A DNA stretch of 32,198 nt. It comes from Candidatus Kaiserbacteria bacterium (lineage in GTDB: Bacteria > Patescibacteriota > Minisyncoccia > Phycocordibacterales > UBA918). This document shows positions 69-31,038 of this stretch, one piece after another. Position numbers and translations under genes: made by a program. How positions within the stretch are numbered: position 1 is the stretch's first letter; each line of letters opens with the position of its first letter. A model generated the notes under the pieces. That model was not told the origin of the DNA. It saw only the letters and a program-made list of their open reading frames with translations, and ran no database searches. The stretch is taken from NCBI GenBank assembly GCA_020428795.1, contig JAGQME010000008.1, positions 1-32,198 of the forward strand. The letters are read 5' to 3'.

Positions 69-905
69 TTATTCAAAATCTTTAAACCTAGCAAAGCTGT
101 AACCTTTATCAATTAGACCATCGAGCAAAGCCAAATAATGCGTCTTATATAACTCTTCATCAAAGTCTAATCCGTCAGCGTAGTTTTGCGGATGAAGCAT
201 TATGATACAAACCGACTCAGTTTTAAAAGTTTCCTCACAAGCAGAAATAGTATCAGCCGCTTCCACCAACACATCATCGGCGTAATTAAAAGTAGTAGCA
301 TCGTAATCCCACTCACCCTTACCTTCTTTAGAAGTTTTTTGTATCCCCTTCTCCTTTAGAGCTTCGTCAGTACCGCTTGATTGTATGTTTTGGGGTGGTA
401 TCCAAGTTACGATCGGTTCAGTAGAAATTTTATTTAAGATATCAAGACCTCGTTCAATTCGGTCTAAGGCTTCGTCTTTTTCTAATTCACCAAACTCTGG
501 TCCGCCGGCCTCAGTTACTCCATGATCAAAACCGTGCATCGCCAATTCATGGTTACAAATTCGAACCTTGATGAAATTGACCAGTTCGACGTCACTCAAA
601 ATATCTTTTGGTATCACTCCCAAAGTCAGAGGTATCTGTCGCCACTTAGCATCCTCAATCATTTTTATCGAGACATCCTTCCAAGTGTAAGCCTGTATAT
701 CGTCAACCCTTAAGATAACTGTCTTATCACCCACCGTTATTGGAAACGGCTTACAATCAGCTTCTGACACCTCACTATCATTAACGATAACTTGGTTATA
801 ATCTTCCGGTAAAACCAGATCACCCAAAAAATAATAAGCCAAGCCAAGGACGATGATAAAAATAACGATATAAATCGGAGTATGTCTGCTTTCTTGATTA
901 GCCAT
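69..905 (-). CDS. Membrane-anchored polysaccharide deacetylase-like protein (NodB/DUF2334 type)
   Basis: 278 residues. A hydrophobic segment at about residues 10-27 looks like an N-terminal anchor, so the catalytic part would lie outside the membrane. The rest resembles the NodB/DUF2334 carbohydrate-esterase fold: RVDDI (about 66-70) supplies the paired Asp, ELAMHGFDH (about 120-128) gives the H-x3-H metal ligands, and IIMLHPQNY near 234-242 matches the Leu-His-Pro motif near the C-terminus. Family members remove acetyl groups from polysaccharides or peptidoglycan; the substrate here is unknown. The ATG at 905 is preceded by TATAAT (911-916) only 5 nt upstream, so the mRNA is probably leaderless. 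It is a single gene downstream of tRNA-Thr on the same strand. Confidence 0.72.
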   Translation of the reverse strand: MANQESRHTPIYIVIFIIVLGLAYYFLGDLVLPEDYNQVIVNDSEVSEADCKPFPITVGDKTVILRVDDIQAYTWKDVSIKMIEDAKWRQIPLTLGVIPKDILSDVELVNFIKVRICNHELAMHGFDHGVTEAGGPEFGELEKDEALDRIERGLDILNKISTEPIVTWIPPQNIQSSGTDEALKEKGIQKTSKEGKGEWDYDATTFNYADDVLVEAADTISACEETFKTESVCIIMLHPQNYADGLDFDEELYKTHYLALLDGLIDKGYSFARFKDFE

Positions 906-1122
906 AATAAATTATATATATCTGAATTAAGGTTAAAAGTTTGTGCGTTATACTACATATAACAAAAATTGTCAATGTTATTGTACAAGCCCCTCCTTCG
1001 GACTGATGATTTCAGATTCCAGTGCAAACTATGACAAAATCTAGTTAAAATATCAAGAAAATTTATAGTTTAGAACGTAAAAACACAAATCACCCTAAAG
1101 AAAACTGAGTGGTCTATAATTA
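906..1122. other. Intergenic region with a promoter only
   Basis: About 217 bases without an open frame of note. The left end carries the TATAAT (911-916) of the deacetylase gene. I see no copy of the tRNA-Thr 3' end here, unlike the regions downstream of the Asp, fMet, Met and Ser tRNAs, and no convincing terminator hairpin. Confidence 0.5.
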
Positions 1123-2332: not shown

Positions 2333-2406
2333 GCGGTCGTAGCTCAGCTGGTTAGAGCGCTGCCCTGTCACGGCAGAGGCCGAGGGTTCGAGTCCCTTCG
2401 ACCGCG
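2333..2406 (+). tRNA. tRNA-Asp (anticodon GTC)
   Basis: Complete cloverleaf: acceptor GCGGTCG/CGACCGC, anticodon stem CTGCC/GGCAG with loop CTGTCAC (anticodon GTC), T-loop TTCGAGT, and discriminator G as expected for Asp. CCA is not encoded (the next bases are CAG). Its last 13 bases plus 7 downstream bases recur exactly at 2569-2588. Confidence 0.95.
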
Positions 2407-2730
2407 CAGTTAGTAAAATCGACTTTCATTTTTATGAAAGTCGATTTTACGTTACGAGCGGTCTAAAAACACGTTAGTGTTTTTAGGGACTCGAAAAGAT
2501 GGAGTATATCGCACGGAGCGAAGCGAGTACGATACGACATCTGTACCGTTCCTGTAAGGAAAGAGTACCCCTTCGACCGCGCAGTTAGATACATTAAGAA
2601 AACCCAGTCATGAATGACTGGGTTTTCTTAATGTAGAATGCAAAGAGTTTTGCATTCGTATCTAACTGCGAAGCGCAGACATGTTTTTCCTCATCCCTAG
2701 GGGAAAAACAGTCGAGCTGGGGTCGAAAGT
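2394..2730 (+). repeat. tRNA-Asp tail-repeat region (direct copy, inverted copies, long hairpins)
   Basis: Direct repeat 2394-2413 and 2569-2588 (20 nt, identical, offset 175) covers the acceptor 3' strand, discriminator and first downstream bases. The first copy is followed by a perfect 17-bp hairpin (2413-2429/2434-2450). An inverted copy of the T-arm/acceptor 3' half follows as two pieces (2458-2463 and 2486-2495), split by a 10-bp hairpin (2463-2472/2477-2486). The second direct copy is followed by a perfect 22-bp hairpin (2590-2611/2614-2635), a 9-bp hairpin (2636-2644/2649-2657), and an inverted copy (2658-2670, complementary to 2580-2592). A further 9-bp hairpin (2682-2690/2702-2710) then leads into a GGTCGAA remnant at 2721-2727. 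No plausible gene is present. Confidence 0.85.
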
Positions 2731-2875
2731 ACTTGCTAGAATCAAAGCGTAGCGAATGATTATAGTTAGTAACTTGTGACCAGTTAGAAATTAACAAGAA
2801 GGATTTGGTCACGAATAAATTTTTTACAAAATCTTTCTCAACCCCACCTTACTCATCTAACAACATCATTCCGTT

Positions 2876-2970
2876 TTCAATTCCTCAGAAAAACAGAGCA
2901 GTTTGCTTCCTCCCATCGACAGACGAAAACCACTCAAAAGGAGTGGCTTTCTTTGTGTCGATGGGAGGAA
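2876..2970 (-). repeat. tRNA-Met tail: terminator hairpin and inverted copy of the tRNA 3' end
   Basis: 15 bases at 2907-2921 are the exact reverse complement of the tRNA-Met 3' end (2956-2970). Between them lies a stem of 6 bp (2930-2935/2941-2946) followed on the minus strand by TTTTC, a likely intrinsic terminator for the tRNA. The inverted copy continues further out as TTCAATTCCTC (2876-2886), separated by about 26 inserted bases (2887-2912), so the copy is broken close to the T-stem/acceptor junction. No direct copy was found on this side. Confidence 0.75.
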
Positions 2971-3029
2971 TTGAACCTCCGACCTCAACTTTATGAGTGT
3001 TGCGCTCTAACCAACTGAGCTACATCGAC
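2956..3029 (-). tRNA. tRNA-Met (anticodon CAT), elongator type
   Basis: Cloverleaf on the minus strand: acceptor GTCGATG/CATCGAC, D-arm GCTC...GAGC, anticodon arm CAACA-CTCATAA-AGTTG with anticodon CAT and an A31-A39 mismatch, T-stem GGAGG/CCTCC, discriminator A. CCA is not encoded (CAA follows). The paired 1:72 position and D-stem GCTC/GAGC fit an elongator rather than an initiator. A tRNA-Ile2 read with lysidine at the wobble position cannot be excluded by eye. Confidence 0.9.
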
Positions 3030-4527: not shown

Positions 4528-4845
4528 AGCGGGGTAGAGGAGAGGTACCTCGGGAGGCTCAATAGGGCTCATAAGAAAGAAATTTTTTATGGAACACTTG
4601 CCAAATTCGGTGAAACCTTTGCTTTAAGCATGGCAATACCGAGCCAAGCCCAGCCCTACTTTATAAATTACAATTTATAAAGTAGGGCTGGGAAGGTGTA
4701 GAGACTAGATGGTAGGCATCTGACTTTAGGAAACTAAAAAGATGAAGGTATAGTCCAGACCCCAAATTCATGTTTTACATGAAGCAGTGAAAACTGTAGT
4801 GGTATGCATAACCTCCAGACCCCGGTTCGATTCCGGGCCCCGCAA
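4528..4845 (+). tRNA. Initiator tRNA-fMet (CAT) interrupted by a group I intron
   Basis: The exons 4528-4559 and 4807-4845 join to a full cloverleaf. The acceptor has G2-C71 to G7-C66 paired and A1/A72 unpaired, the D-stem has A11:T24, the anticodon stem is GGAGG/CCTCC with loop CTCATAA (anticodon CAT), and the T-stem is CCCGG/CCGGG. The unpaired 1:72 position and A11:U24 are hallmarks of bacterial initiator tRNAs. Position 1 is A rather than the usual C, and the anticodon stem has A29-U41 instead of three uninterrupted G-C pairs. CCA is not encoded (CAA follows). The 3' half looks at first like a tmRNA tail, but the 5' exon settles it as a tRNA. Confidence 0.9.
4560..4806 (+). ncRNA. Group I self-splicing intron in tRNA-fMet (between U33 and C34)
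   Basis: 247 nt, no ORF. The conserved core is clear: AAATTCGGTGAAACC (P region), GGCAATACCGAGCCAAGCC (Q), GTAGAGACTAGATGG (R) and GGTATAGTCC (S). GACTA in R and TAGTC in S form P7. The layout closely follows the cyanobacterial tRNA-Leu intron core (IC3 type). P8 has a TTTAG-GAAA-CTAAA hairpin. The P9 region has TTCATG-TTTTA-CATGAA and CAGT-GAAA-ACTG. The 5' exon ends in U (4559) and the intron ends in G (4806), as group I chemistry requires. GGGCTC near the intron start is a candidate guide for a short P1, but that pairing is weak by eye. A 21-bp perfect hairpin (4649-4669/4672-4692) fills the P6 position. Confidence 0.9.
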
Positions 4846-5111
4846 CAATAACAAAATCACATCCCTTCTGGGATGTGATTTTGTTATATGTTTGCGGAGG
4901 CCAGAGAGCAAACTGCTTTGCTCTCGTCGGAATCGAACGGACGGAGTCATGTTTTTATTTATTCCTAAAATAAAAACGGACGAGACGAGCCAACGAGTTC
5001 TTATGAGCGTAAGCGAATTTGAAACTCGATGTCGATTCCGGGCCCCGCAACAAGTAAATTTCAACACAAGATAAACGGCCAGCGATCGCTGGCCGTTTAT
5101 CTTGTGTTGAA
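4827..5111 (+). repeat. tRNA-fMet tail-repeat region (direct copy, interrupted inverted copy, long hairpins)
   Basis: The last 19 tRNA bases plus CAA (4827-4848) recur exactly at 5032-5053 (22 nt, offset 205). The first copy is followed at once by a perfect 17-bp hairpin (4849-4865/4870-4886). An inverted copy of the tRNA 3' half follows in two parts (4892-4902 and 4928-4938), interrupted by a 9-bp hairpin (4904-4912/4917-4925). Next is a 10-bp hairpin (4951-4960/4968-4977) and a spacer with GAGCGTAAGCGAA (5005-5017). The second direct copy is followed by a 52-base perfect palindrome (5060-5111) abutting the stop codon of the next gene, which may act as a bidirectional terminator. Confidence 0.88.
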
Positions 5112-9807: not shown

Positions 9808-10374
9808 CTAAAATTCGGCAGTCAGTTCACGTTGTACTGCAAATAGATCACTGTCTAAGCCGGCACACTCTCGGTTATGGCCTTGTGACACTACCACTGT
9901 ACAAACCGCTCCTTTTTCACAATCAGTTTCGATTCGGCCGACCGGATAATCAGTTAGATCATAACCTGACTCGTTTATTAGTACGTGCGTAAAGGTATGC
10001 AAACAACGATCTTCTCCATTAATATTAATATTAAATTCATACTCGGCATTGTTTATAGTTATGCCTGACACTGTATCTTGATCCACCGCAGGAACACGAT
10101 TTGCCACCCCTCCACAATCAATGGTTAAACTACCAGCCGTCGGCTCTGGTGTCACCTGTGTGAAATCATCTCGCAATTCATAACGCCAATAACGGGAGCA
10201 CTCCAAACCAATATTTGCTACCTGAAATGCCACCTCAGACTCTCTCGATACAGCAGAGAGATTAAGTTGCTTAAGAGCTACACTTAGTAAAGTCAGACCA
10301 ATCGCCAAAACCACGCTCGAGATAATAATCGATAGCAAGAGAGCAAAACCTGATTGTGATGATTTAGTCGGCAT
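9808..10374 (-). CDS. PilX-like minor prepilin
   Basis: 188 residues. It has a short basic leader (MPTKSSQSG) then FALLLSIIISSVVLAIGLTLLSVAL, a class III signal with a hydrophobic helix. The position-5 glutamate of major pilins is replaced by Leu, as is common for PilX/GspK-like minor pilins, which sit at the pilus tip. Five cysteines in the C-terminal half suggest disulfides. It overlaps the preceding prepilin gene by 11 nt and is the last gene of the pilus operon. Confidence 0.75.
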   Translation of the reverse strand: MPTKSSQSGFALLLSIIISSVVLAIGLTLLSVALKQLNLSAVSRESEVAFQVANIGLECSRYWRYELRDDFTQVTPEPTAGSLTIDCGGVANRVPAVDQDTVSGITINNAEYEFNININGEDRCLHTFTHVLINESGYDLTDYPVGRIETDCEKGAVCTVVVSQGHNRECAGLDSDLFAVQRELTAEF

Positions 10375-10957
10375 AAAGATTATAAAGATACGAAGTTAGA
10401 ACTACTGTTCTGGTACCACCAAAAATATTAGCATTCCATGATACTGAAGAGGTTACCTGCACCTCTCTGTCTGTACCACTGTCAGTAATCTTGATTACTC
10501 TAGTATATATTGACGGTGTGTTGCCTGAAGCACGTGAACTAGTGTACTGTGAACGATAATTCGAATCACTGGATTTATAAAGAATACAGGGGTTACTCGC
10601 GCCATTATTACAACTAGCAACATCGTAATTAGTAGTCTCCGCATCACTTGAATTATCCCACTCAATATTGCATCCGTTTACGTTTTGACAAGCACTCAAC
10701 ACACCACTAGGCTCAGCCCAATCCCAAGCCTTTTCATCACCAAATTCTTTCAAAGCTTCTTGATTTCTAACCGCCGCTACTGACTCGATACCCTCCTGAG
10801 CTAGATAGACCGCCGTCGCTTGTTGATTTACAAACCGACCAGTCTGGATTCCTTTAGCCGCAATTGTCATCGGGCCCACAATTGATAACATCAAAATAGA
10901 CACTGCTACCAAAGCTTCAACCAACGAATATCCCTTTGTGTGTTTAAGCTTATACAT
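10364..10957 (-). CDS. PilV/GspI-like minor prepilin
   Basis: 197 residues. The leader MYKLKHTKG precedes YSLVEALVAVSILMLSIVGPMTIAAKG, a class III prepilin signal with Glu5; the EALVA...LAQEGIE pattern matches the PilV/GspI group. The remainder is a pilin-like globular domain with four cysteines. It would be cut by PilD and join the tip complex of the type IV pilus. It starts 5 nt after the previous prepilin stop. Confidence 0.8.
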   Translation of the reverse strand: MYKLKHTKGYSLVEALVAVSILMLSIVGPMTIAAKGIQTGRFVNQQATAVYLAQEGIESVAAVRNQEALKEFGDEKAWDWAEPSGVLSACQNVNGCNIEWDNSSDAETTNYDVASCNNGASNPCILYKSSDSNYRSQYTSSRASGNTPSIYTRVIKITDSGTDREVQVTSSVSWNANIFGGTRTVVLTSYLYNLYAD

Positions 10958-10962
10958 AAAAT

Positions 10963-11580
10963 TTATATATCCAAAAGTAATTGAGCCACCGTGGTCTGAA
11001 TAACAAAATCAGCTCCCAAGTCACCAGCTCCACCGGATTGACCAGTGATATAGATGGTCAGAGTGGGAGCCACTACGTCAGAAGCGACCGAAAGCCTAGC
11101 ACTACCGGTTAGAGTAAAACGCAAGTCTGTAATATCAACGAGTGGTGCCGTCACCCGTGACCAACTACCGGTGCCGAGTCTTCTCTCGATGGCCCCCACC
11201 CCATCAATCTCTGACAATCTATAAGCAATTCGGGATGAACCCTTACCAGCTGTCAAACTATTACCACCTTCATTAAAAGCAAAGAAAGTGTCACCAGCGG
11301 CGCAATCCTTCACATCATCACTGTCTGGATTGGGATTTGAATCAGCATCGTCACAATAATAATCAGAGCCGGTCCGGATATCGCGCACCATACTATCAAG
11401 AGCAAAAGTAACGTTAGTCATGACATTTTGTTGTGACTGTGATTTGGTGTTAGCGTCAATCAAGACCAACAAAGTCCCGACACTAACAGTGACCACAATA
11501 GTAAAGATAGAAAGTGATACCAAAACCTCTATCAGAGAGAAGCCTTTTGTCGAATTTTTTGTATCAAGAGAAAAATTCAT
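10963..11580 (-). CDS. PilW/GspJ-like minor prepilin
   Basis: 205 residues. The leader ends at KG, followed by FSLIEVLVSLSIFTIVVTVSVG, with Glu5 at the expected place. The longer globular domain with FALDSMVRDIRTGSDYYCDD and the C-terminal VVAPTLTIYITGQS resembles PilW/GspJ proteins. The Asp-rich loop (about residues 78-90) could bind calcium, which is inference only. It is 7 nt downstream of the GspH-like prepilin. Confidence 0.8.
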   Translation of the reverse strand: MNFSLDTKNSTKGFSLIEVLVSLSIFTIVVTVSVGTLLVLIDANTKSQSQQNVMTNVTFALDSMVRDIRTGSDYYCDDADSNPNPDSDDVKDCAAGDTFFAFNEGGNSLTAGKGSSRIAYRLSEIDGVGAIERRLGTGSWSRVTAPLVDITDLRFTLTGSARLSVASDVVAPTLTIYITGQSGGAGDLGADFVIQTTVAQLLLDI

Positions 11581-11587
11581 ATTACCT

Positions 11588-12169
11588 TTATTCTACCGTC
11601 ACTTGGCCAGAACTATAAATAATTACCTTACGATTGGAGCTCGAGTTTCGTTTGGCCTGAACAGTAATTTCTACCGAATTAAGAGAGTTGTTGGAATCAT
11701 CTTCCATAATAGCGTCAAAGTTTGGCCGTTTAAAAATGATTGAGGCTTCATTTTCGGTAACACTACCGTTTGAGGTTATTGAACTTATAATAAATCTACC
11801 ATCGAGATGTAGAGTCTCAATCTCTTCCCCAAGATCATACTTTCCATTATTACTACCAGTGTCTTGAAAAAAGATATATTCAGTGGGTTCGTCTATATCA
11901 TAAAACAATCCGTAGTTACTGGTGAAAGCATCACCAGTCCCAGGGTCTCTAGCCTGAATACTTATCGCTCGCACCTGTGTCTCACGTATATCAAGAGCAA
12001 TTTCATAGGCTTGGTTATTCAACAAAACACTACTGTCAAAAGAAGAATAACGGATCATTACAATAGCTGTAATCAAGGTCACTATTGAGATAGTGACCAA
12101 CAACTCAACCAAAGAGAAACCAGCCGTCGCTGGTGATTTTTTGTCATTATAAGTAATTTTAAAAAACAT
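11588..12169 (-). CDS. GspH/FimT-like minor prepilin
   Basis: 193 residues from the ATG at 12169, which is 2 nt after the pilD stop; a TTG further upstream (12187) would overlap pilD. The leader ends in TAG, followed by FSLVELLVTISIVTLITAIVMIRY, a prepilin signal with Glu5. The globular part has the RETQVRAISIQ and IYSSGQVT elements seen in GspH/FimT pseudopilins. It would be part of the pilus tip complex. Confidence 0.78.
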   Translation of the reverse strand: MFFKITYNDKKSPATAGFSLVELLVTISIVTLITAIVMIRYSSFDSSVLLNNQAYEIALDIRETQVRAISIQARDPGTGDAFTSNYGLFYDIDEPTEYIFFQDTGSNNGKYDLGEEIETLHLDGRFIISSITSNGSVTENEASIIFKRPNFDAIMEDDSNNSLNSVEITVQAKRNSSSNRKVIIYSSGQVTVE

Positions 12170-12171
12170 GA

Positions 12172-13008
12172 TTACAACAAAAACCAATCCAGCGCCTCTA
12201 GTACATCAAATGAAAAAGCGTACACTATAATAAAACTTATGATGATAAAAGGCGCAAAGGGAACTTCACTTTTAATTGTAAAATGAATCTGTCTAATTGG
12301 TAAGTGTGGTTGTCCCCTCTTATATAGGTAGAGAGCCCCCATAATCCCCAGACTAATGATACTGCCAACCCAAAAAGATCCCACCACAAAAGTAAAAGCT
12401 CCACTAGGACCGAGTAAAGTAGCTAGCGGAAAAGCCAGTTTGGCATCACCAAGACCAATCCAACGTCCCTTAGACACCACCCATAAACCGCCAAAGAAGA
12501 CAAAGGCTCCGACCCCACTGAGTAGATGACTAAGCCAATCAGCTTCCCCATTTTGCCAAAAATTATACAAGAGTATTAAAACAACCAATACAGTTGTCAT
12601 AGTCACCATTAGATTGGGTATGATGAGGTGATAATAATCATAAAAAAAAGTTATCACCAAAACAGCCACCAAGACCAGAGACAAAACAACAATTATCGGA
12701 TCAGAAAAGGCTTGGTAAATAATGACAAATAAACTAGCGGTCAAAAGCTCACACCATAAGTACCGAATGGGTACATAAGAAGAACAAGAACGACAACGAC
12801 CGCTTTGCACCAAATAAGAGACCAAAGGAATCAACTCATACCAGTGGAGAATTTTACCGCAAGACATACAGTGCGACTGGCCATTTAGAGATCGGCCGGT
12901 GTGTAGCCGATAAATTACTACGTTGAGAAAACTACCAATGATAAGACCAAAGACAAACACCACTGAATATTGGTACCAAAGGGGCAGTAAAGATAAATCC
13001 AGTATCAT
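12172..13008 (-). CDS. pilD: Prepilin peptidase / N-methyltransferase
   Basis: 278 residues from the ATG at 13008. A multi-pass membrane aspartyl protease that removes the leader of the prepilins and methylates the new N-terminus. FGLIIGSFLNVVIYRL and the cytoplasmic zinc module CMSCGK...CRSCSS are typical. The two catalytic aspartates sit in FDYYHLIIPN and GLGDAKLAFPL. It lies between the major pilin and the minor prepilins, so enzyme and substrates are co-transcribed. Confidence 0.95.
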   Translation of the reverse strand: MILDLSLLPLWYQYSVVFVFGLIIGSFLNVVIYRLHTGRSLNGQSHCMSCGKILHWYELIPLVSYLVQSGRCRSCSSYVPIRYLWCELLTASLFVIIYQAFSDPIIVVLSLVLVAVLVITFFYDYYHLIIPNLMVTMTTVLVVLILLYNFWQNGEADWLSHLLSGVGAFVFFGGLWVVSKGRWIGLGDAKLAFPLATLLGPSGAFTFVVGSFWVGSIISLGIMGALYLYKRGQPHLPIRQIHFTIKSEVPFAPFIIISFIIVYAFSFDVLEALDWFLL

Positions 13009-13027
13009 TTTATTATTTATTCCCAAA

Positions 13028-13432
13028 CTAAGAAGCTGGACAGGTACTGGTAGTTGGTTCTGTTATCCTACCACCAGCAAAACCTTCATTATCAACACAA
13101 AAATAACTACCATCTGATAATACTGATGAAATACGAAATTCACTGCCATTTGAACTACAATCAAATGTACCACCAGCATTATTAATACTATTTTCTGCCG
13201 ATAAAAGTTCTGGCTGAATACACAAATTTGTATAACTTAAACTATTAGAATCATAATATAGTTCAGCTTGTGCTCTCATGTTATTTATATTAGAACGAAT
13301 ATTTGCATCCGCCCCTTTTTCGCGAGCCGTATTTAGAGAAGCAAGCACCACAGAGGCCAAAATACCAATAATGGCGATTACCACCAAGAGTTCGATCAAA
13401 GTGAAACCTCGATTTTGAATTTTTGTAAACAT
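13028..13432 (-). CDS. Major type IV pilin
   Basis: 134 residues. The leader MFTKIQNRG is followed by FTLIELLVVIAIIGILASVVLASLNTAREKG, the canonical N-methyl-helix with Glu5. The short globular domain has four cysteines, two of them near the end (YFCVDNEG...TSTCPAS), forming the D-region-like loop. It is the best candidate for the main fibre subunit: it has its own promoter region upstream and is separated from pilC by a terminator. Confidence 0.92.
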   Translation of the reverse strand: MFTKIQNRGFTLIELLVVIAIIGILASVVLASLNTAREKGADANIRSNINNMRAQAELYYDSNSLSYTNLCIQPELLSAENSINNAGGTFDCSSNGSEFRISSVLSDGSYFCVDNEGFAGGRITEPTTSTCPAS

Positions 13433-13753
13433 AATTTTGTTAATTTGTGTTAATTATTTTGTCCAGACATCAGCTGATGTGTCTCGACTACGTTGTACAC
13501 ATACTTGTCTGTGTATCTATACATTATACGGTCTTTATTTGGCTATATTCTGTCATCTGTGGACAATGTCCCAAATGAATGTTGTCTTCGACAGACTTTA
13601 ATTGGATCTGAAAAGAAACTTCGATATTTTATAAAGCCTAGAATTGAGTGAAGTTCGAGGGAGGTGAGAAACAAATACTCAAGTGGGTGAATACCCAGCG
13701 AGAGTATTTTTTCGATGGCTACCGAAGAAATTTACCAATTTTAAGCCATTCAT
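13433..13753 (-). promoter_or_regulatory. Pilin upstream region: pilC terminator, promoter and palindromic leader
   Basis: 321 bases with no gene. Near pilC a nested hairpin (AATACTC 13674-13680 with GAGTATT 13702-13708, inner TGGGT/ACCCA) is flanked by T-runs on both strands, so it can terminate in either direction. A minus-strand -10 TATAAT (13523-13528) would give a pilin mRNA with a leader of about 85 nt. The leader contains the 14-base palindrome ACATCAGCTGATGT (13467-13480). GGACAATGTCC near 13561 is another short palindrome. This layout allows the pilin to be made in excess over the machinery. Confidence 0.65.
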
Positions 13754-14962
13754 TTAGATGGCGGAGGTTAGATTATAAATCGGCATCAAAACCGAAGCCA
13801 ACAAAACCCCTACCCCCAGACCAAGTAACACGATCATCACTGGCTCAATCAAGCCGATCAAAGTATCGACAGCGTTATCTACCTCCCTTCGATAGAAGGT
13901 AGCTAGAGTATTTAAAATCTCCGGTAAATTACCCGTTTCTTCACCCACCTTAGCCATCTGTGATAATACTCCTGGCACCTCTGGGTATTCGGATATAGTA
14001 TCAGCGAACGAACGTCCACCCTTTACCTCAAGTAGCGTAAATTCCATAATTTCCTTATAAACTCGATTATCTACCACATCAGCCGTAACCTCCAAAGCCT
14101 GCACCATCGAAATACCGCTCCCCACCATGGTTGAGAGGTTGTCACAGATGCGGGTTAGGTATAGCTTACGATTTAAATCACCAAGATAAGGGATCGATAT
14201 CTTCATCTCATCGTAGGCTCTTCTCCCTACATCGGTTCGCAAAAAGCGCCATAAGAAAAATCCACCCACTGACAAAACCAAGAATATGGCGCCGATGTAA
14301 TTTACAAAGAAAGAAGACAGTCCAATAACAATCTTGGTGTAAATAGGAAGCTCCTGACCAGAGTCAGTCAAAATCTGAGCAATACGAGGAATCACCAAGG
14401 TCAACATCACTCCCATTACAATCAAGAAAGTACCGACCACAAAAGCCGGATAGACCATGGCGTTTTTGGCCTTAGACGTAATCTGATACGAACGATCAAG
14501 ATAGTCGGCCAAATAACCAAAAGATTTTTCTAGCGAACCGGTCTCTTCACCAGAACGCACCATGTTTACATAAAAAGATGAAAAGATATCTGGATGACTA
14601 GACAAAGCCCTTGAGATAGAGCTACCAGCCTGTAGTTCATCAGAGATTGAATTTAGAACCGTTCTTAATTGGGGATTTTCAGCTTCAGAGCCCAACAGAC
14701 GAAAAACTCGCAAAGCCGATACCTGAGCTTGAAATAAAGTAGATATTTGTCTCGATAAAATAACTATCTCTTTGTTTGAAACTGATTGAAACCAAGTTAT
14801 TTCAAAATTTAAAATGGAGGATTTTTGCTCCACCGCATCAATCGAAATGATGGTGTAGCCTCTTTTTTGGACAGTGATAATAGCCGCATCGACATTGGTA
14901 GCTTCAACCGTACCTTCACGGGAAGTGTTATGTTCGTCTATGGCTTTATATGTAAAGAGCAT
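13754..14962 (-). CDS. pilC: Type IV pilus inner-membrane platform protein
   Basis: 402 residues, the usual length for PilC/GspF. Two T2SSF domains (about 70-195 and 270-395), each followed by hydrophobic segments; motifs VRSGEETGSLEKSF and AKVGEETGNLPEIL are the two repeats of the family's GE-x-TG motif. It links the ATPases PilB and PilT to the growing pilus. It starts 21 nt after pilT and ends before a terminator. Confidence 0.96.
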   Translation of the reverse strand: MLFTYKAIDEHNTSREGTVEATNVDAAIITVQKRGYTIISIDAVEQKSSILNFEITWFQSVSNKEIVILSRQISTLFQAQVSALRVFRLLGSEAENPQLRTVLNSISDELQAGSSISRALSSHPDIFSSFYVNMVRSGEETGSLEKSFGYLADYLDRSYQITSKAKNAMVYPAFVVGTFLIVMGVMLTLVIPRIAQILTDSGQELPIYTKIVIGLSSFFVNYIGAIFLVLSVGGFFLWRFLRTDVGRRAYDEMKISIPYLGDLNRKLYLTRICDNLSTMVGSGISMVQALEVTADVVDNRVYKEIMEFTLLEVKGGRSFADTISEYPEVPGVLSQMAKVGEETGNLPEILNTLATFYRREVDNAVDTLIGLIEPVMIVLLGLGVGVLLASVLMPIYNLTSAI

Positions 14963-14983
14963 ACCTATATAGTACCATTCTTA

Positions 14984-16054
14984 TTACATTATTCTTTCCA
15001 GACCCTTTGGATTAAGTGAATAGGCAAAAGCATTTTCCACGGTTATTTCTCCTCGCTTGACCAACTCTGCCAAGGATCGGTTCATATCTATCATACCCTG
15101 TTCCAATCCGGTCTCAATAAGAGTTTGGATTTCGTGGGTTCTTCTTTCACGAATTAGGTTAGAAACGGCACTGTTGTTTATCAGAAGTTCGTAAGCTGGA
15201 ACCAAACCACCGGAGATACACGGAATCAATCTCTGGGAGAATATGCCAGCCAAAGAACCAGCCAACTGAACTCGAATCTGATCTTGCTGACCAGCTGGGA
15301 AGGAGTCGATGATACGGTCGATAGTCTGAGCAGCGTTGTTGGTGTGCAGGGTTGATAAGACTAAGTGACCAGTCTCCGCCGCTGTTACAGCGGTGGCGAT
15401 TGTTTCATTATTTCTCATCTCACCCACCAAAATCACGTCAACGTCCTGACGAAAGACAGAGTTGAGAGCTACCTGAAAACTAGCGGTATCAACTCCGATT
15501 TCTCTCTGTACAATCAGAGATTTTTTTGGTGTATACAAATACTCCACCGGATCTTCAATGGTTACAATGTGTTCAGCTCGATTTTGGTTAATGTATTCAA
15601 CCATAGAAGCCAAAGTAGTAGACTTACCTTGACCAACCGGACCCACACACAGAAAGAAACCTTGCGGACGTTGCACAAAACTTTCTAGAATCGGTGGCAA
15701 CTTCAATTCCTCCATCGAACGAATCTCGTTTGGAATCAAACGCAAAGCAATAGACATTGAACTACTTTCGTAAAAACCGTTACCACGAAAACGAATACCA
15801 TCAGCATGGGGGTAAGAAAAGTCTGCTTCGCGAGTGGTGACGAAACTCTTGTATTTTGATTCGCTCATTAAAACTTTGGCAAAACCCTGCATGTCGTCGT
15901 TGGTTAAGATTGGTTTCTTCATCAGTGGTATCAAAGAACCAGCCACTCTCACAATCGGGTGGGAACCAACTGACAAGTGAATATCTGAACCATTTTCAGA
16001 TACCACAATGTCTACCAAGTCACTTAATTCACGTTTATAGTCTACTGATGCCAT
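14984..16054 (-). CDS. pilT: Pilus retraction ATPase
   Basis: 356 residues. Walker A is GPVGQGKS (138-145), with Val and Gln in place of the common Thr and Ser, and Walker B is VDVILVGEMRN. The Asp box (IVTIEDPVEYLY) and His box (TGHLVLSTLHT) are intact, as is the AGIFSQRL segment. PilT powers retraction, needed for twitching and DNA uptake. TAAAAT (16061-16066) lies exactly 6 nt before the ATG, so besides read-through it may have its own leaderless transcript. Confidence 0.95.
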   Translation of the reverse strand: MASVDYKRELSDLVDIVVSENGSDIHLSVGSHPIVRVAGSLIPLMKKPILTNDDMQGFAKVLMSESKYKSFVTTREADFSYPHADGIRFRGNGFYESSSMSIALRLIPNEIRSMEELKLPPILESFVQRPQGFFLCVGPVGQGKSTTLASMVEYINQNRAEHIVTIEDPVEYLYTPKKSLIVQREIGVDTASFQVALNSVFRQDVDVILVGEMRNNETIATAVTAAETGHLVLSTLHTNNAAQTIDRIIDSFPAGQQDQIRVQLAGSLAGIFSQRLIPCISGGLVPAYELLINNSAVSNLIRERRTHEIQTLIETGLEQGMIDMNRSLAELVKRGEITVENAFAYSLNPKGLERIM

Positions 16055-16071
16055 AATAATATTTTAAAAAA

Positions 16072-16443
16072 TTAACTTACTGCTATGCCTTGTAAAATTG
16101 TATGTACCTTCTCTACCACTTCGCTTGGCACATACTCCGCTTTTACTATATAACCCACCGCCCCCGCTTTCTCCGCATCATCTTTATCAAAAGATTCGCC
16201 TTGATTTGATAAAACGATACAAGGTAACTTTGGGTGTTTTTCTTTAATCTTGCGCAAAAGGTCCAGACCCGACATTTGTGGCATCACCATATCAGTCACC
16301 ACCACATCAAAGGTTTCCTCTTCAAGAAGACTTAAAGCCTCCATTCCCGTAGAGACAGGAGTTGGCTTATCACCTCGTTCAGTAAACTTAATCGCATACA
16401 TGTCACGCAAAAACACGTCATCATCCAACAGCAGAATCTTCAT
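16072..16443 (-). CDS. Single-domain response regulator in the pilus operon
   Basis: 123 residues, a receiver (REC) domain only. The acidic pocket is LLDDDVF (about 4-10), the phospho-acceptor Asp is in VVVTDMVMPQMSG (about residue 51), the switch Ser is in CIVLSNQG, and the Lys is in GYIVKAEY. There is no output domain, as in CheY and PilG/PilH. It sits between pilB and pilT, so it probably tunes extension or retraction. No histidine kinase is in the window. TATAAT (16450-16455), inside the end of pilB, is exactly 6 nt before the ATG. Confidence 0.9.
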   Translation of the reverse strand: MKILLLDDDVFLRDMYAIKFTERGDKPTPVSTGMEALSLLEEETFDVVVTDMVMPQMSGLDLLRKIKEKHPKLPCIVLSNQGESFDKDDAEKAGAVGYIVKAEYVPSEVVEKVHTILQGIAVS

Positions 16444-16445
16444 GA

Positions 16446-18305
16446 CTACATTATAGCGCCATCGACACTTTGGTTGGCTCGGTTATCGACAGTTGAATCA
16501 TTTAAACTTCCTTCGGATCCCACCACTTCGGCCTCATCGTCCGCCTTATCAAGTTCAAAGCCCATATCCAAACCAACCTTGGTACCAAAGACATTCATTT
16601 CTTCGTACGGAATAGTATGATCCAGAGCTTTGATGATGGCATCTTGATGCATGGTCATGAAACCATGTTTTCTGGCTGCCACCTCCATCTCTTCCTCAGA
16701 CCCACCCCGCAAAATCAACTCTTGAATATCAGGAGTGATTTCAAATGTCTCCGTCACCGCCACTCTTCCCTTGGTTCCAGCTGAACAACCCGGAGTAGGA
16801 TCGGGGTGCAACATAGTATCTGAATCTGGAATTCTAGAACGATAGCGCTCTGGTAGATTAGAAAACGAATCATCAATCATATCTTTAACCACCCCTTTCA
16901 CTTCCATAACCTTTGTACTACCAGGACATAGTCGACGGGCCAGACGTTGAGCAATAGCTAATTTAAGAGTTGGCGCAATCAAATACGGATCAACTCCCAT
17001 GTCTATCAATCTCGGAATCACACCGATTGAATTGTTGGTGTGAATAGTAGAAAGTACCAAGTGACCGGTCAAAGCGGCTTGAATGGCCAGTTGAGCTGTC
17101 TCCTTATCACGAATCTCTCCAACCATAATAATGTCAGGGTCTTGTCTAAGAGCACTACGTAGACCAGCTGCAAAGGTATAACCAATCTCCGGCCTAACCT
17201 GTGACTGACTAACATTCTTGATGTTGTACTCAACCGGATCTTCAAGTGAAAGCACGTTCTTTGTCTCCTTATCGACTTCGTCCATCATCGAATACAAAGT
17301 GGTGGACTTACCAGAACCAGTTGGTCCAGAAATCAATATGATGCCGTAAGGTTCCTTAATCACTCTTCTAATTACTTCTAGGTTGTAACTTGAAATACCG
17401 GTGTCTTCTAAATTATTAACTCCTCGGATATTATCCAAAATACGCATTACCACCTTTTCACCATGACTGGTTGGTAAAACAGATACACGGAAATCAATTT
17501 TTCGACCGTCGAAAGTGGCCGAAAAACGTCCGTCTTGAGGCTTTCTTTTTTCGTCAAGACGGACCGAGGCTAAGATTTTTACCCTAGCCACCACTGCGTC
17601 GCGGACATTTTTCGGCAATTCCAAACTTTTTTGTAACTCACCATCAACTCGAAACCTAACCACCACCTTCTCTTCATTTGGCTCAATGTGAATATCAGAA
17701 GCTGCCCCATCAACGGCATAACGCAAAATTGTAGCCACAATTTTGGTTACCGGAGCATCTTCTTTTAGGTTATCGATATTCTCAGTCTGTGTTTTACTTT
17801 TGGATTCTTTGGCTTTGGCGGTAATCTCGTTTTCTAGCTCATCCTCAAGTGAACCAAGCGCTTCTCCGACTTCACCACTTAATGATTCGTAGAAATTAAG
17901 AGCTTTGACAATATCAGAAGCCAGCATATACACCAGCTTATAGGGAATATTGTGCTTGGTGGAGATAAAGTTTAAAACTTCACGGACCTGAAGGTTATCA
18001 GGATCATTTGAAGCTACTATCAAAACTCCATCCTCAATCTTGAAAGGAACAATTCTGTAATATCTAGCTGATTCTTCTGATACATAAGATAGAATCTCCT
18101 CAGATAATTCGGCATCCTTTTCCAGAGTCATCGCTGGTGTACCGTAATACTCAGAAAAAATTTCCCTTATTACATCTTCACTGATACCGGCTTGAATCAT
18201 CGCCTCCTCGTAAGACACACCTTCTGTCTGTACCAATTTAGAAATAGCACCAACTACATCATCAGTGACTACACCTTTGTTTTTAAGTAATGCTAGCACA
18301 TCCAT
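16446..18305 (-). CDS. pilB: Pilus extension ATPase
   Basis: 619 residues. The N-terminal MshEN-like region (about 1-150, with YYGTPAMTLEKD) in other bacteria often binds c-di-GMP. The charged linker is residues 155-185. The ATPase has Walker A GPTGSGKS (327-334), the Asp box SLEDPVEY, Walker B DIIMVGEIRD (391-400) and His box LSTIHT. The C-terminal metal-binding region is reduced, with isolated cysteines (RRLCPG, PGCSAG). It drives pilus assembly. It follows the PilP-like gene by 7 nt. Confidence 0.96.
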   Translation of the reverse strand: MDVLALLKNKGVVTDDVVGAISKLVQTEGVSYEEAMIQAGISEDVIREIFSEYYGTPAMTLEKDAELSEEILSYVSEESARYYRIVPFKIEDGVLIVASNDPDNLQVREVLNFISTKHNIPYKLVYMLASDIVKALNFYESLSGEVGEALGSLEDELENEITAKAKESKSKTQTENIDNLKEDAPVTKIVATILRYAVDGAASDIHIEPNEEKVVVRFRVDGELQKSLELPKNVRDAVVARVKILASVRLDEKRKPQDGRFSATFDGRKIDFRVSVLPTSHGEKVVMRILDNIRGVNNLEDTGISSYNLEVIRRVIKEPYGIILISGPTGSGKSTTLYSMMDEVDKETKNVLSLEDPVEYNIKNVSQSQVRPEIGYTFAAGLRSALRQDPDIIMVGEIRDKETAQLAIQAALTGHLVLSTIHTNNSIGVIPRLIDMGVDPYLIAPTLKLAIAQRLARRLCPGSTKVMEVKGVVKDMIDDSFSNLPERYRSRIPDSDTMLHPDPTPGCSAGTKGRVAVTETFEITPDIQELILRGGSEEEMEVAARKHGFMTMHQDAIIKALDHTIPYEEMNVFGTKVGLDMGFELDKADDEAEVVGSEGSLNDSTVDNRANQSVDGAIM

Positions 18306-18312
18306 AATTGTG

Positions 18313-18606
18313 CTAATTAGTTACATCAAATGGATTCTGTCGACCGATTGGAACCGGAACAATCTGCTTCCTAACTTCCTTTAGACTTCTAAAGCGAGCG
18401 TCATTAAATAATGAATCATCAAGTTCAATCGCCTTTAGCTCACCCAACCGACTAAGAAACTCCGCCGCTTCAATAGAGGCTTGACTGGTACCTGAGACAG
18501 AAGTACCAGTCAAAACTGAATCTTGTTGACTATAGAAATAGTAACCAATGGCACCTAATACTATGATACCAAGTAGAGCCACTAGATTTTGTAACGTTGA
18601 AGACAT
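18313..18606 (-). CDS. Small membrane-anchored protein, PilP-like
   Basis: 97 residues. It has one membrane segment (about 8-24), then a short soluble part ending in PIGRQNPFDVTN. The GRxNPF ending recalls the conserved GR-x-PF segment of PilP, which bridges the PilN/PilO ring and the secretin. Its place after the PilO-like gene and before pilB supports the reading. No beta-domain of full-length PilP is present, which fits an organism without an outer membrane. Confidence 0.6.
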   Translation of the reverse strand: MSSTLQNLVALLGIIVLGAIGYYFYSQQDSVLTGTSVSGTSQASIEAAEFLSRLGELKAIELDDSLFNDARFRSLKEVRKQIVPVPIGRQNPFDVTN

Positions 18607-18611
18607 AGTGA

Positions 18612-19220
18612 TTATTGATTACTTGATAAAGCGTAAGTTTTTAATATAAGTTCAAACTCAATCTCATCAGGGTTGGCACCAACATCAAATTGTTTGGCTT
18701 GCTCGGCGTCACTACCAAAACTCAGATTAGTGATCTCCAAAATATAGGAGGTGGACTCTAGATCCCTAAGGAAACCGATAAATCCTTGGTAGTCAGATAT
18801 CATTGACAATTCGAAAGTCTGAGAGACAAATTTGTTGGCAGTAACGGCTTGTTCATCATAATAGTCATCAAAATCAACATCAGGGTTTGGTAAAATCACC
18901 TCACCAGCTGTCATATCTACTACCTTACCGCCGTTTTTCTCGACCAAAATCTGGACATCATCCATCACTGCAAAAGGTTCAATCTTTGATGGTAAAAATG
19001 TCTCTAAGGCTTTGATGTCGGCGTTACTAAACTCACTCTCTCTTAACAATAGTTGCTGTAATCTAGTGTTGAATTGATTGGCTTTTTCGGTCGCATCGGC
19101 ATACTCATAAATCTCATCCTGCACTACTCGAATATTGGCGAAGGTCGGTCGAATATAGCTAACAATAATAACCACCGAAATGATGATGAGAGCGACTTGA
19201 GTTACAGCTGTATTTCTCAT
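18612..19220 (-). CDS. PilO-like pilus assembly protein
   Basis: 202 residues. One N-terminal membrane helix (about 8-25) is followed by a coiled-coil (VVQDEIYEYADATEKANQF) and a ferredoxin-like domain (FELSMISDYQGFIGFLRDLESTSYILEITNLSF), the pattern of PilO. It would pair with the PilN-like protein to form the inner-membrane alignment complex. It is 13 nt after the PilN-like gene and 5 nt before the PilP-like gene. Confidence 0.75.
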   Translation of the reverse strand: MRNTAVTQVALIIISVVIIVSYIRPTFANIRVVQDEIYEYADATEKANQFNTRLQQLLLRESEFSNADIKALETFLPSKIEPFAVMDDVQILVEKNGGKVVDMTAGEVILPNPDVDFDDYYDEQAVTANKFVSQTFELSMISDYQGFIGFLRDLESTSYILEITNLSFGSDAEQAKQFDVGANPDEIEFELILKTYALSSNQ

Positions 19221-19233
19221 AAAAAATTATTGA

Positions 19234-19986
19234 TTATATTTCTTCACCATTATTAACCTCTTCAGAAGAATTGACTGATGAAGTGGCGGCGTCCATCTCT
19301 AAATCATTTAGCTCATCGGTAGCTTCCATAGAAGTTTCTTCAGTAAGCTCTTCTTCGACCAAAACACCATCTGGCTGATATCTTAAATCAGCCACCTTAA
19401 ATCCTCCTGACAAAGCAAAAGCAATCGCCTGACCTTCACTTCTGGCGACATCGTCACCGATCTGACTATCTCTTGAGGTGTAGCTTTGATTGATAATTCC
19501 AGCTTGACGTAAGGTTTCGTTGGCAGCAAACACGTCCCTTTGGAACCTAGCGTCATTTAGGTTTCGGGCCAAAGCATTTACTACGACACTAATGGCTCCA
19601 AATTCGGTTCGGTCATATTCGATACCAGTTAGTTGTACGGTGTTTAAAGTCGATATTTCAAGCGCCTTAAAAATATCAGCCACTGAAACATGGGTATCTA
19701 ATACTATGTTGGCATTGTTTATTCTTAATTCGAGTTCTTTCAACCTTTCTAGGTCACTGGCATTAAAGGCATTTCGCTCATTAGCTAATTGTTCTTTTTG
19801 TGCATCTAACTGTGAATTGACCGTTACATCAAAAAAGAAAGTTCCAGCCGAAGCGATTAGAGTACCGAAGAACAAAACCAAACTAAGATATGTAAAAACA
19901 TAAATCTTTCGTACACCGCGAGGTCGGATGACACTCTTGGTAGGAGATTTTGGAATAAACGAAGAAGGACCTTGAGGACTTATCAT
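19234..19986 (-). CDS. PilN-like pilus assembly protein
   Basis: 250 residues. There is a basic cytoplasmic N-terminus of about 28 residues, one membrane helix (about 30-52), a coiled-coil (SQLDAQKEQLANERNAF region), then a PilN-like domain with STLNTVQLTGIEYDRTEF and VNALARNLNDARFQRDV. The C-terminal tail is strongly acidic. The N-terminus would bind PilM as in the PilM-PilN pair. TATAAT (19995-20000) is 8 nt before the ATG. Confidence 0.75.
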   Translation of the reverse strand: MISPQGPSSFIPKSPTKSVIRPRGVRKIYVFTYLSLVLFFGTLIASAGTFFFDVTVNSQLDAQKEQLANERNAFNASDLERLKELELRINNANIVLDTHVSVADIFKALEISTLNTVQLTGIEYDRTEFGAISVVVNALARNLNDARFQRDVFAANETLRQAGIINQSYTSRDSQIGDDVARSEGQAIAFALSGGFKVADLRYQPDGVLVEEELTEETSMEATDELNDLEMDAATSSVNSSEEVNNGEEI

Positions 19987-20043
19987 ACAAAGACATTATA
20001 CTTCTATTATTGGCTGGGGTACTGATTGTCCTGTGGACAGGTT

Positions 20044-21123
20044 TTAATTTTCAAAAGAGCGAAGAGCTCCACCAAGCGCCACTGTAAATGAAGGGGCTAT
20101 TTCTTGCAGTCTAGATTCCATAAAAGCTGGATAGGCTACCTTAGAAAAAGCGTTGGCTCTCTCAACAGTTCGATCTAACATATAACCAGAAAAAGGAACC
20201 ATCTCTCCAAAACTAGCTGAACCGCCAGTCAAAATTACTCGCTCAACTTTCTCCCCCACCTTCATTTCATTTTGAGTCAAAACTCTTTTGAATTCCTGCA
20301 AAGGACGTTCAAACGTACTAATGACAGCCTTCTTAATATCCAGACTATTCTCCATATCAGGAGAAAAATTTCGTTTAGCATTTTCTGCTGCTTCGTGAGA
20401 TAGACCGGTTAATTCCATTATTCTGTCTGTAGCCTGTGAACCACCAATTCTAACTCGGTGGATTTTTCTTAACATACCTTGATGAATAATGTACATCTTA
20501 GAGGTCTCAGCTCCCAAGTCCAGAATCGCCACAGCCCTATCTTTTGGTTTGGACAAGGCTCTCACAGCACTAAATAATTCACTTTCCGCTGGCTGCACAA
20601 ACTTCTGAACCGATTGCATTACTGAGGTCATTTCTGAATAGGGATCATTTTGGACAGCAACGACTAATATTTCTCGCACGTTATCTGGCACATTCCCCAA
20701 CGGTGGTAATTCCGTCCAGTCCAAAGTCACGTCAGCCAGCGGGATTGGGATATATTTTCTGGCCTCTACCCTAACCCTCGGTCCGATGTCTTCCTCCGGC
20801 TTGGCTGTCATCGACATAATGGTTACAAAACTAGAGGATAGAGGCATGGACAATAAGCCTGATTCGGCACTCACACCAGACTCATTGATAACGTCCGTCA
20901 AAGCTTGAGTCTTTTTCTTCTCATCTAATTTTACCGGCTTACCTAATTCAGAATCGGCGTATGGTCCTAACTGTATCTCACCATAGGTTTTTAGGACAAC
21001 CAAATCTTTCCTTTTCTCTAATTCCACCACCTTAATAGAAGAACTACCAAAATCAATACCAACGACATTGTTTGGAGTAACATTTTTTTTATGACCAGAC
21101 AGTAAACTGGTTAGGTTGAACAT
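20044..21123 (-). CDS. pilM: Type IV pilus assembly ATPase, actin-like
   Basis: 359 residues from the ATG at 21123. Actin/FtsA-like fold: phosphate-1 GIDFGSSSIKVVEL, phosphate-2 VAILDLGAETSKMYI, adenosine motif VILTGGSASFGEM. PilM is cytoplasmic and docks on the PilN N-terminus. An earlier in-frame ATG (21186) overlaps comF, and the TATTAT box (21131-21136) lies 7 nt before 21123, so the shorter, probably leaderless form is preferred. It is the first gene of the pilus cluster. Confidence 0.93.
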   Translation of the reverse strand: MFNLTSLLSGHKKNVTPNNVVGIDFGSSSIKVVELEKRKDLVVLKTYGEIQLGPYADSELGKPVKLDEKKKTQALTDVINESGVSAESGLLSMPLSSSFVTIMSMTAKPEEDIGPRVRVEARKYIPIPLADVTLDWTELPPLGNVPDNVREILVVAVQNDPYSEMTSVMQSVQKFVQPAESELFSAVRALSKPKDRAVAILDLGAETSKMYIIHQGMLRKIHRVRIGGSQATDRIMELTGLSHEAAENAKRNFSPDMENSLDIKKAVISTFERPLQEFKRVLTQNEMKVGEKVERVILTGGSASFGEMVPFSGYMLDRTVERANAFSKVAYPAFMESRLQEIAPSFTVALGGALRSFEN

Positions 21124-21129
21124 AACACC

Positions 21130-21170
21130 TATAATAGTATCATTACTTTTGAGCAAAGTAAGGTTTTGAT
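21130..21170. promoter_or_regulatory. Overlapping divergent promoter between pilM and comF
   Basis: Plus-strand TATAAT (21130-21135) and minus-strand TATTAT (21131-21136) occupy the same bases, a symmetric -10. The comF side has a leader of about 29 nt with AAGG 7 nt before its ATG. The pilM side is leaderless by spacing. Confidence 0.65.
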
Positions 21171-21776
21171 ATGAACTTTTCAACAATAATTAATTTTATT
21201 TTTCCCCCTTCTTACGATGAGAAAACTCTTAAGGCTTGTTCTGACAAAAAATTTTTAGATTATTATCAACCACAGACAATAAATAACGTCATTACTCTAT
21301 TACCTTTCACTGAACCAAGTGTAAAAGCAGCCATACATTTAACCAAATGGCACGCCAAGTCAAGAGCTATAAAATTACTTGGTATGATTCTGGCTAAAAA
21401 CTTAGCCGGTTATGAAAAAGAGACTGTTATCATTCCAATTCCACTGTCAAAAAAGCGCTTTCACGAACGTGGTTATAATCAGGTTGATTTGATTATCAAA
21501 AGCGCCCTCGAGCAAGGTTTGGAATTAGATTACCAAAAAAATATTTTAAGTAGGTGTAAAAATACCAAACCACAAACTTCATTAAAAAGATCAGACCGGA
21601 CCCAAAACATCATTGGAGCCTTTTCTTGCTCCAGCACAAAAGGACAATATCTAACTGGTCGGTCAGTAATTATCATTGATGATGTGATGACCACTGGTTC
21701 TACACTTAAGGAGGCAGAAGCTTCGCTTCTGCCTCACCACCCCTCCTCCATCACCACTCTAGCTTTGGCTCATTAA
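21171..21776 (+). CDS. comF: ComF-like phosphoribosyltransferase-fold protein
   Basis: 201 residues. ComF family: the PRTase domain with IPIPLSKKRFHERGYNQVD and the PRPP loop VIIIDDVMTTGSTLKE. ComF is needed for DNA uptake in naturally competent bacteria. The N-terminal zinc ribbon (paired CxxC) of full-length ComF is absent; only one Cys remains in the first 60 residues. An in-frame 10-bp hairpin (21711-21720/21726-21735) encodes EAEASLLPH just after the PRPP loop. Divergent from pilM, with a shared promoter, which supports a joint role in DNA uptake. Confidence 0.88.
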   Translation: MNFSTIINFIFPPSYDEKTLKACSDKKFLDYYQPQTINNVITLLPFTEPSVKAAIHLTKWHAKSRAIKLLGMILAKNLAGYEKETVIIPIPLSKKRFHERGYNQVDLIIKSALEQGLELDYQKNILSRCKNTKPQTSLKRSDRTQNIIGAFSCSSTKGQYLTGRSVIIIDDVMTTGSTLKEAEASLLPHHPSSITTLALAH

Positions 21777-30989: not shown

Positions 30990-31038
30990 TCCTAAAGTAT
31001 ATCAAAGTAAGTTATGTGTCTCGTGCTAGCTCTAAACG

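Follow-up and report, generated by a model that had tools for sequence, protein, structure and literature searches.

Folded units carrying copies of the adjacent tRNA 3' end: an apparently undescribed multi-copy family in one order of Patescibacteria

Behind about one third of the tRNA genes in four closely examined genomes we found short units in which inverted and direct copies of the 3' end of the neighbouring tRNA enclose a folded core; own-tail copies of some kind stood behind about one half. These units are apparently an undescribed multi-copy family of tRNA-anchored folded elements, specific in the samples searched to one order of very small bacteria, most of them uncultured. The explanation we favour, at about even chances, is that the units are copies of a non-coding, lineage-specific insertion element which settles at tRNA 3' ends, duplicates the tail and exchanges its core with other units. 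The window, i.e. the whole stretch of 32,198 nucleotides that was analysed, is contig C43 of a Candidatus Kaiserbacteria genome (G000; 0.86 Mb, 99% complete).

The order of parts in a unit is tRNA, spacer hairpin, first inverted segment (Inv1), hairpin H, second inverted segment (Inv2), core, direct copy (Dir) and trailer. Inv1, which is optional, is the complement of the acceptor strand, and Inv2 is complementary to T-stem and T-loop as far as T54. Inv and Dir sequences match the resident tRNA. Two types of core were distinguished: type A consists of a stem P2, the sequence GUAC and a hairpin P3 with a UGUAA loop, type B of a GGAG...GAG stem and a GGUCGCGA...UUGUGACC stem.

In the window, the type A unit behind tRNA-Asp (GTC; 2333-2407, plus strand, host of unit 1, detected by ARAGORN and Rfam) shows all these parts on the plus strand. 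A spacer hairpin with a terminator-like stem (2416-2450, inverted repeat I2) is followed by Inv1, GCGGTC (2458-2463), by the perfect hairpin H, TAAAAACACGTTAGTGTTTTTA (2464-2485), at the junction of T-stem and acceptor with the break at tRNA position 64, and by Inv2, GGGACTCGAA (2486-2495), complementary to the T-loop and the 3' strand of the T-stem. The core (2496-2562) has homologues in relatives and was matched by covariance model R1 at 78.2 bits (2485-2573), a score that is not independent because the unit belongs to the training set of R1. Stem P2 is formed by AGATG (2497-2501) and CATCT (2538-2542), GTAC lies at 2543-2546 and P3 with its UGUAA loop at 2549-2561. Dir (2563-2588, direct repeat D5) copies the 3' end of tRNA-Asp, exactly so over 2569-2588. 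A perfect 22-bp palindrome (2590-2635, I4, plus strand) lies 3' of Dir. Two recurrent details were also seen here: two extra bases, AC, inserted in the T-loop portion of Dir (2563-2570), shared with loci L163, L182 and L154 from different genomes and tRNAs, and GCGAAGC-type mini-hairpins flanked by GA steps, present in the cores or spacers of many units (e.g. 2512-2524). The GCGAAGC mini-hairpin motif is very stable in single-stranded DNA.

A second unit, of type B, stands behind the Asp unit (2658-2787, plus strand; I20, D1) and was matched in relatives. Its closing helix copies the trailer (CTAACTG ... CAGTTAG) and not the T-arm, so such helices need not derive from a tRNA. Unit 2 of the window belongs to tRNA-fMet, the gene of which is split by a group I intron (RF00028, 76 bits in Rfam; 4550-4778) in the anticodon region and is for this reason missed by ARAGORN. 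From the tRNA 3' end (4827-4848, D2) onwards, all on the plus strand, this unit comprises a spacer hairpin (4848-4887, I8), Inv1 TTGCGGAGGCC (4892-4902), H (4903-4925), Inv2 CGGAATCGAAC (4928-4938), a type B core (4939-5031; D1, with a relative in L045) and a Dir which is an exact 22-nt copy (5032-5053, D2); H and Inv2 were delimited by break scoring. On the minus strand, tRNA-Met (2955-3029, ARAGORN) hosts unit 3, with Inv1 CCATCGACA (2913-2921), a 26-nt interruption holding a weak H (2887-2912), Inv2 TTCAATTCCTC (2876-2886, like the interruption placed by break scoring) and a type B core with a degenerate Dir, AAATCCTTC (2802-2875), recognised by eye from the type B pattern. The fourth unit, also on the minus strand, is that of tRNA-Ser (31168-31040). 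Its Inv is uninterrupted and without H by break scoring (31149-31168), the core is of type B (31058-31148), and beyond Dir (31040-31057) follows a flank that lies directly 3' of the tRNA in unit-free congeners. The sequence CCGTTTAGAGCTAGCACGAGACAC is common 3' of several tRNA-Ser genes (window, about 31016-31039; L202, L209, L222) and is possibly the end of another integrative element. The remainder of the window includes a long run of type IV pilus or pseudopilus and secretion-type ATPase genes (9808-21186, by inspection of open reading frames), which is ordinary for the group.

These copies are not a product of chance, as followed from a scan of the 260 nt 3' of each tRNA in four genomes (136 tRNA genes, 130 scored) with the tails of other tRNAs as the null. 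A direct copy of the own tail at score 13 was present for 60 of the 130 tRNAs, compared to 1.2% for the tails of other tRNAs, and an inverted copy at score 11 for 39, compared to 1.9%. Complete units by a stringent count numbered 51 in the four genomes (9 to 15 per genome), which is a lower bound, the Asp unit itself falling below the cut-off. Over 108 units, the identity between Dir and tRNA was 0.84-1.00 at positions 56-73 and dropped across 74-76, down to 0.56 at 75.

With the Asp unit as query, matches at the DNA level were obtained in 18 of 40 related genomes, at most 10 per genome and mostly covering 70-80 nt of the core, with core identities of 75-91% across the order. Using the type A covariance model, units were detected in 50 of 98 genomes of the order, patchily and in up to 33 copies, and in a sample of 116 genomes from the phylum, under strict filters, solely in the window's own genome. 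The type A signature occurred in 75 stretches among 84,980 species genomes. Their titles name Zambryski-, Taylor-, Nomura-, Kaiser-, Lloyd- and Vogelbacteria, other Patescibacteria, unnamed bacteria and one Woesebacteria bin; the named relatives are Patescibacteria of the Parcubacteria kind. Of 81 signature matches, 66 had a same-strand tRNA no more than 450 nt to their 5' side, and the rest were mostly at contig edges. None was found in IMG/VR contigs, so the units are not obviously phage-borne. In Rfam 15, loose E-values included, the unit had no match, the tRNA and the group I intron being the only families found. Literature accessible to us, which took in few subscription papers and no preprints, yielded nothing relevant on such units; one patescibacterial paper (PMC13059738) is about phage tRNAs.

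The preliminary description of the window had claimed that the inverted copies of the Asp, fMet and Met units are split close to the boundary between acceptor strand and T-stem. This was confirmed base for base, and with uniform scoring the pairing stops at position 64 in all three. The suggestion that three independent interruptions reveal a structural site was right about a recurrent site and understated its extent, as dozens of units and genomes share the hairpin position. When inverted copies at other tRNA loci were aligned (54 units, i.e. 51 from the four genomes plus Asp, fMet and Met), the breaks clustered around the T-stem/acceptor border at 65/66 instead of being scattered: the last contiguous pair between Inv and tRNA tail fell at 62-66 in 35 units, or in 32 of 51 when the three window units were excluded. 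A hairpin ended within four bases of the break in 44 of the 54, and in several units with a break scored at 67-71 the pairing runs on into H by chance. A break in every unit did not hold, however; in the tRNA-Ser unit of the window Inv is unbroken to position 71, and a few other units are likewise unbroken, so hairpin H is usual and not obligatory.

The nature of H becomes clearer from its two neighbours. Inv1 continues the spacer or terminator hairpin of the acceptor strand, as inspection made clear in L211, L216 and the Gln unit of G000, and Inv2 is the closing arm of the core. H therefore looks less like a bulge within a single arm than like a seam where two palindromes meet. The earlier view that either the tRNA tail or the direct copy could serve as pairing partner of the inverted copy was supported, and the hairpin placed by it at a three-way junction is right in outline, with the seam taking the place of the bulge.

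Next to the break, the fold as a whole was considered. The stretch from Inv2 to Dir is more stable in the tRNA-sense strand than in the complement in 40 of 46 units, and in 16 of 16 outside type A (Wilcoxon p 1e-7, which is optimistic as the units are related). For 29 type A units RNAalifold gave 13 pairs, 12 of which have double-sided changes; the stems covary. Conserved residues of the core are the GAA after Inv2, the AC of GUAC and the UGUA of the loop. Judged from folding predictions and covariation, this shows that the sense strand is folded, as RNA or as single-stranded DNA.

The preliminary interpretation is sustained in part, by the recurrent break position, the stability of the sense strand and the covarying stems, but not by the arms; an RNA fold is a putative cause of the break position. 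Departures of Inv2 from the tRNA comprise 20 G-U and 21 A-C pairs; an excess of G-U, considered as a proof of RNA pairing, was thus rejected, and the arm appears without RNA-specific wobble constraint. Furthermore, at positions where tRNA and Dir differ, Inv2 agrees with the tRNA at 35 and with Dir at 3, several of these positions deriving from multi-unit loci or an indel. The same preference was seen in single units adjoining their tRNA (L125 (Leu-taa), L141, L164, L168 and L177). Pairing with Dir is therefore not what is kept in Inv2. The G-U and A-C counts make copying or correction a likelier origin of the Inv2 arm than maintenance by RNA pairing. Against a copied arm counts a tandem GA variant in six units, in which TC of Inv2 is replaced by GA opposite GA, a change not expected from simple copying. 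Inv1 is at chance level in about one third of units. In units lacking it the acceptor part of Dir is intact in 25 of 30, compared to 14 of 27 in units with a perfect Inv1; the preservation of Dir is therefore not due to pairing with Inv1 either.

Several observations concern the movement of cores. Among 29 type A cores the nearest core was in the same genome for 22 (8.1 expected); for 2 the host tRNAs of both cores specify the same amino acid. In G002, the units of tRNA-Lys and tRNA-Leu, about 700 bp apart, have cores that are 99% identical together with different arms and H. At orthologous tRNA-Ser(GCT) genes of two congeners (L211 and L216), spacer and Inv1 are common and H and core are replaced, type B in one and type A in the other. 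Units also occur in tandem and nested, and in L187 tRNA-Phe is followed by a unit with a Dir of tRNA-Lys type. The strongest indication is an empty site: in G020 and G235, tRNA-Ser(GCT) has no unit and is directly joined to the flank CCGTYTAGAGCTAGCACGAGA, which equals the post-Dir flank of the window. This evidence comes from one locus, and the flank is common to several tRNA-Ser genes and could be part of another integrated element.

Some loci depart from this pattern. L014 (1117-1480) has two truncated tRNA-Glu copies 5' of the intact gene, one of them passing at G53 without a gap into a 13-bp stem (CTGGTTGATGTAC/GTACATCAGCCAG), to which a type B core is attached. In L065 (about 770-920, minus strand) a tRNA-Arg copy is cut at G53 and followed by a hairpin and a type A core; the 3' parts of these tRNA-Glu and tRNA-Arg copies are decayed. 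In L169 and L122 another insert (ACAATAAAATAAGGAA...) divides the Dir of tRNA-Ser at about 64/65, and the acceptor part resumes on its far side; a similar insert is present in L112. L170 may be a deletion or an assembly error. In L186 (contig C2 of G002, near 108556) tRNA-Asn is interrupted by an N run after the anticodon stem, and no other tRNA-Asn was found in G002. For an obligate intron in the T-loop, a search for missing isoacceptors gave no clean case, the tRNA-Asn of G002 being cut by the N run.

Candidate machinery was searched by profile. Reverse transcriptase (RVT_1) was found in none of G000, G002, G026, G037, G160 and G177; G026, G037 and G160 are among the unit-rich genomes, and an origin by reverse transcription was dropped because several of the richest genomes have no RVT_1. 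Y1 transposase was found in none of the unit-holding G000, G002, G026, G206 and G033. An IS200/IS605 origin, hinted at by AAAG beside P2 and GTAC beside P3, was dismissed because presence of Y1 does not track the units. Tyrosine recombinases occur in every genome tested, with a single PF00589 gene in G000, G002, G037, G160 and G177; most genomes, unit-free ones included, hold one, which is probably the chromosomal Xer. A dedicated mobility enzyme was thus not found among the three families profiled.

Altogether, the insertion element would operate as follows. Insertion would double the tail, from about tRNA position 54-57 to 73/74. One copy would stay attached to the tRNA body and keep the tRNA functional, and the other, Dir, would end up on the far side of the element, next to the native trailer. 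On the tRNA-sense strand the insert would fold into a three-way junction of closing helix, P2 and P3, the 5' arm of the closing helix being Inv2, complementary to the resident T-arm, with H directly 5' of it. The acceptor strand, the spacer hairpin and Inv1 would form a separate extended palindrome 5' of H, so that H would be the seam of the two palindromes and fall at the T-stem/acceptor border. Cores would be swapped among units of one genome, and arms remade from, or corrected to, the resident tRNA. We infer that the change ran towards insertion; the arms would be remade by copying on a fold-back or by correction of the palindrome, and the element would be selfish or neutral. Arguments for an insertion element are the own-tail copies, an identity of Dir and tRNA like that of a target-site duplication, the empty site, nearest cores in the same genome, tandem and nested units, the Dir of L187, the patchy distribution, the core replacement between L211 and L216, the sense-strand fold and the covarying pairs. 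Against it speak the missing dedicated enzyme in the families searched, the position of units almost always beside a tRNA, which would suit a local function too, and the sharing of the empty-site flank by several tRNA-Ser genes. Also, the intact acceptor part of Dir in units that offer it no pairing partner could mean selection.

A cis-acting RNA switch or alternative 3' end we consider unlikely, if the most serious competitor. Here read-through transcripts would have two interchangeable tails, of which Inv would sequester the first and Dir replace it. The unit would in effect be a T-loop insertion after G53, either spliced out or tolerated, with a role in regulating or safeguarding the maturation of the tRNA. 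Conservation of Dir exactly to the mature 3' end even without Inv1, as if it paired with the 5' strands of the tRNA, would suit such a role, as would an Inv2 tracking the tRNA's own tail and not Dir, the folded sense strand, the tandem GA variant, and the copies of tRNA-Glu and tRNA-Arg that pass directly into a hairpin-core insert at G53. However, units differ between genomes for the same isoacceptor, Inv2 has no G-U excess, Dir is in a worse state where Inv1 is perfect, and no tRNA was found with Dir as its only intact tail. Moreover, terminator-like hairpins precede units in G000 and G002, and with such a hairpin between tRNA and unit in the window genome, transcription of the unit is only putative.

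Tail copies, tandem arrays and sense-strand asymmetry could also be read as a folded single-stranded DNA recombination site, integron-like or CTX-phage-like, in which the sense-strand hairpin would be cut and joined by Xer or another host recombinase with the tRNA tail as attachment site. The tyrosine recombinase in every genome tested and the recurring GCGAAGC mini-hairpins would agree with it. We hold this for improbable, as most genomes have one tyrosine recombinase whether or not they hold units, and the sites are not constant in sequence, unlike expected attachment sites. Least probable is a mutational by-product without any element, arising by tandem duplication of the tail, template switching at terminator hairpins and gene conversion: Inv1 extending the terminator palindrome into the tRNA (L211, L028) and equal G-U and A-C counts would follow from it, but it is already disfavoured by a core shared across the order at 75-91% identity, with conserved AC, GAA and UGUA and covarying stems, and not found outside the order in the 116-genome phylum sample.

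A comparison with known systems places the units apart from each. Like genomic islands and other integrative elements at tRNA 3' ends, which use attachment sites of tyrosine recombinases, they land at the tRNA 3' end, leave the tRNA intact with a tail copy downstream, and form tandem arrays; a flanking direct repeat is present, and an empty site at one locus. They differ in being about 100-200 nt long and gene-free, without an integrase of their own or a dedicated one in the genomes tested, and in holding an internal inverted copy, with one core serving many tRNA species with matching arms. With MITEs, REP/REPIN and other short non-autonomous repeats they share small size, structure, multiple copies, patchiness and strand-specific hairpins. 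In contrast to these, their terminal repeats are those of the resident tRNA and change with it, whereas MITEs have constant inverted repeats of their own, and their location is limited to tRNA tails. tRNA-derived SINEs and LTR primer-binding sites also carry tRNA 3'-end sequence or its complement; here, several unit-rich genomes have no reverse transcriptase, and the tRNA part varies with the neighbouring tRNA. The tRNA 3' external transcribed spacer 3'ETS-leuZ acts as a sponge. Such sponges and tmRNA-type tRNA-like structures resemble the units in being encoded directly 3' of a tRNA or in having a helix like that of acceptor and T-stem, but the T-loop sequence of the units is in a helix and not in a loop, a closed acceptor helix with Inv1 is not found in all members, and transcription or charging of a unit would be hypothetical. 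A pseudo-tRNA in which H replaces the D and anticodon arms, although topologically apt, was rejected, as the T-loop copy pairs with Inv2 and Inv1 is often missing. Integron attC sites, finally, are folded one-strand palindromes after genes as well. By eye, however, the units generally do not follow the RYYYAAC/GTTRRRY rule, and their arms vary by site in genomes with mostly one tyrosine recombinase.

In conclusion, the units may represent a new class of element that remakes its own ends from the resident tRNA, or else an RNA that gives each tRNA a swappable second 3' end; that one of these holds we rate somewhat below even. If there is such an element class, one core could occupy any tRNA harmlessly, its ends being made in both orientations. 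If mobile, it would have a new and safe mode of entering essential genes, through adaptation to every target. If functional, the units would offer tRNA-specific control through the tRNA's own tail. Their host bacteria, in which they are abundant at tRNA genes, are noted for genome reduction. Where units are frequent at tRNA loci, assemblies of Patescibacteria may moreover break, and the annotation of tRNAs and the calling of integration sites may be misled.
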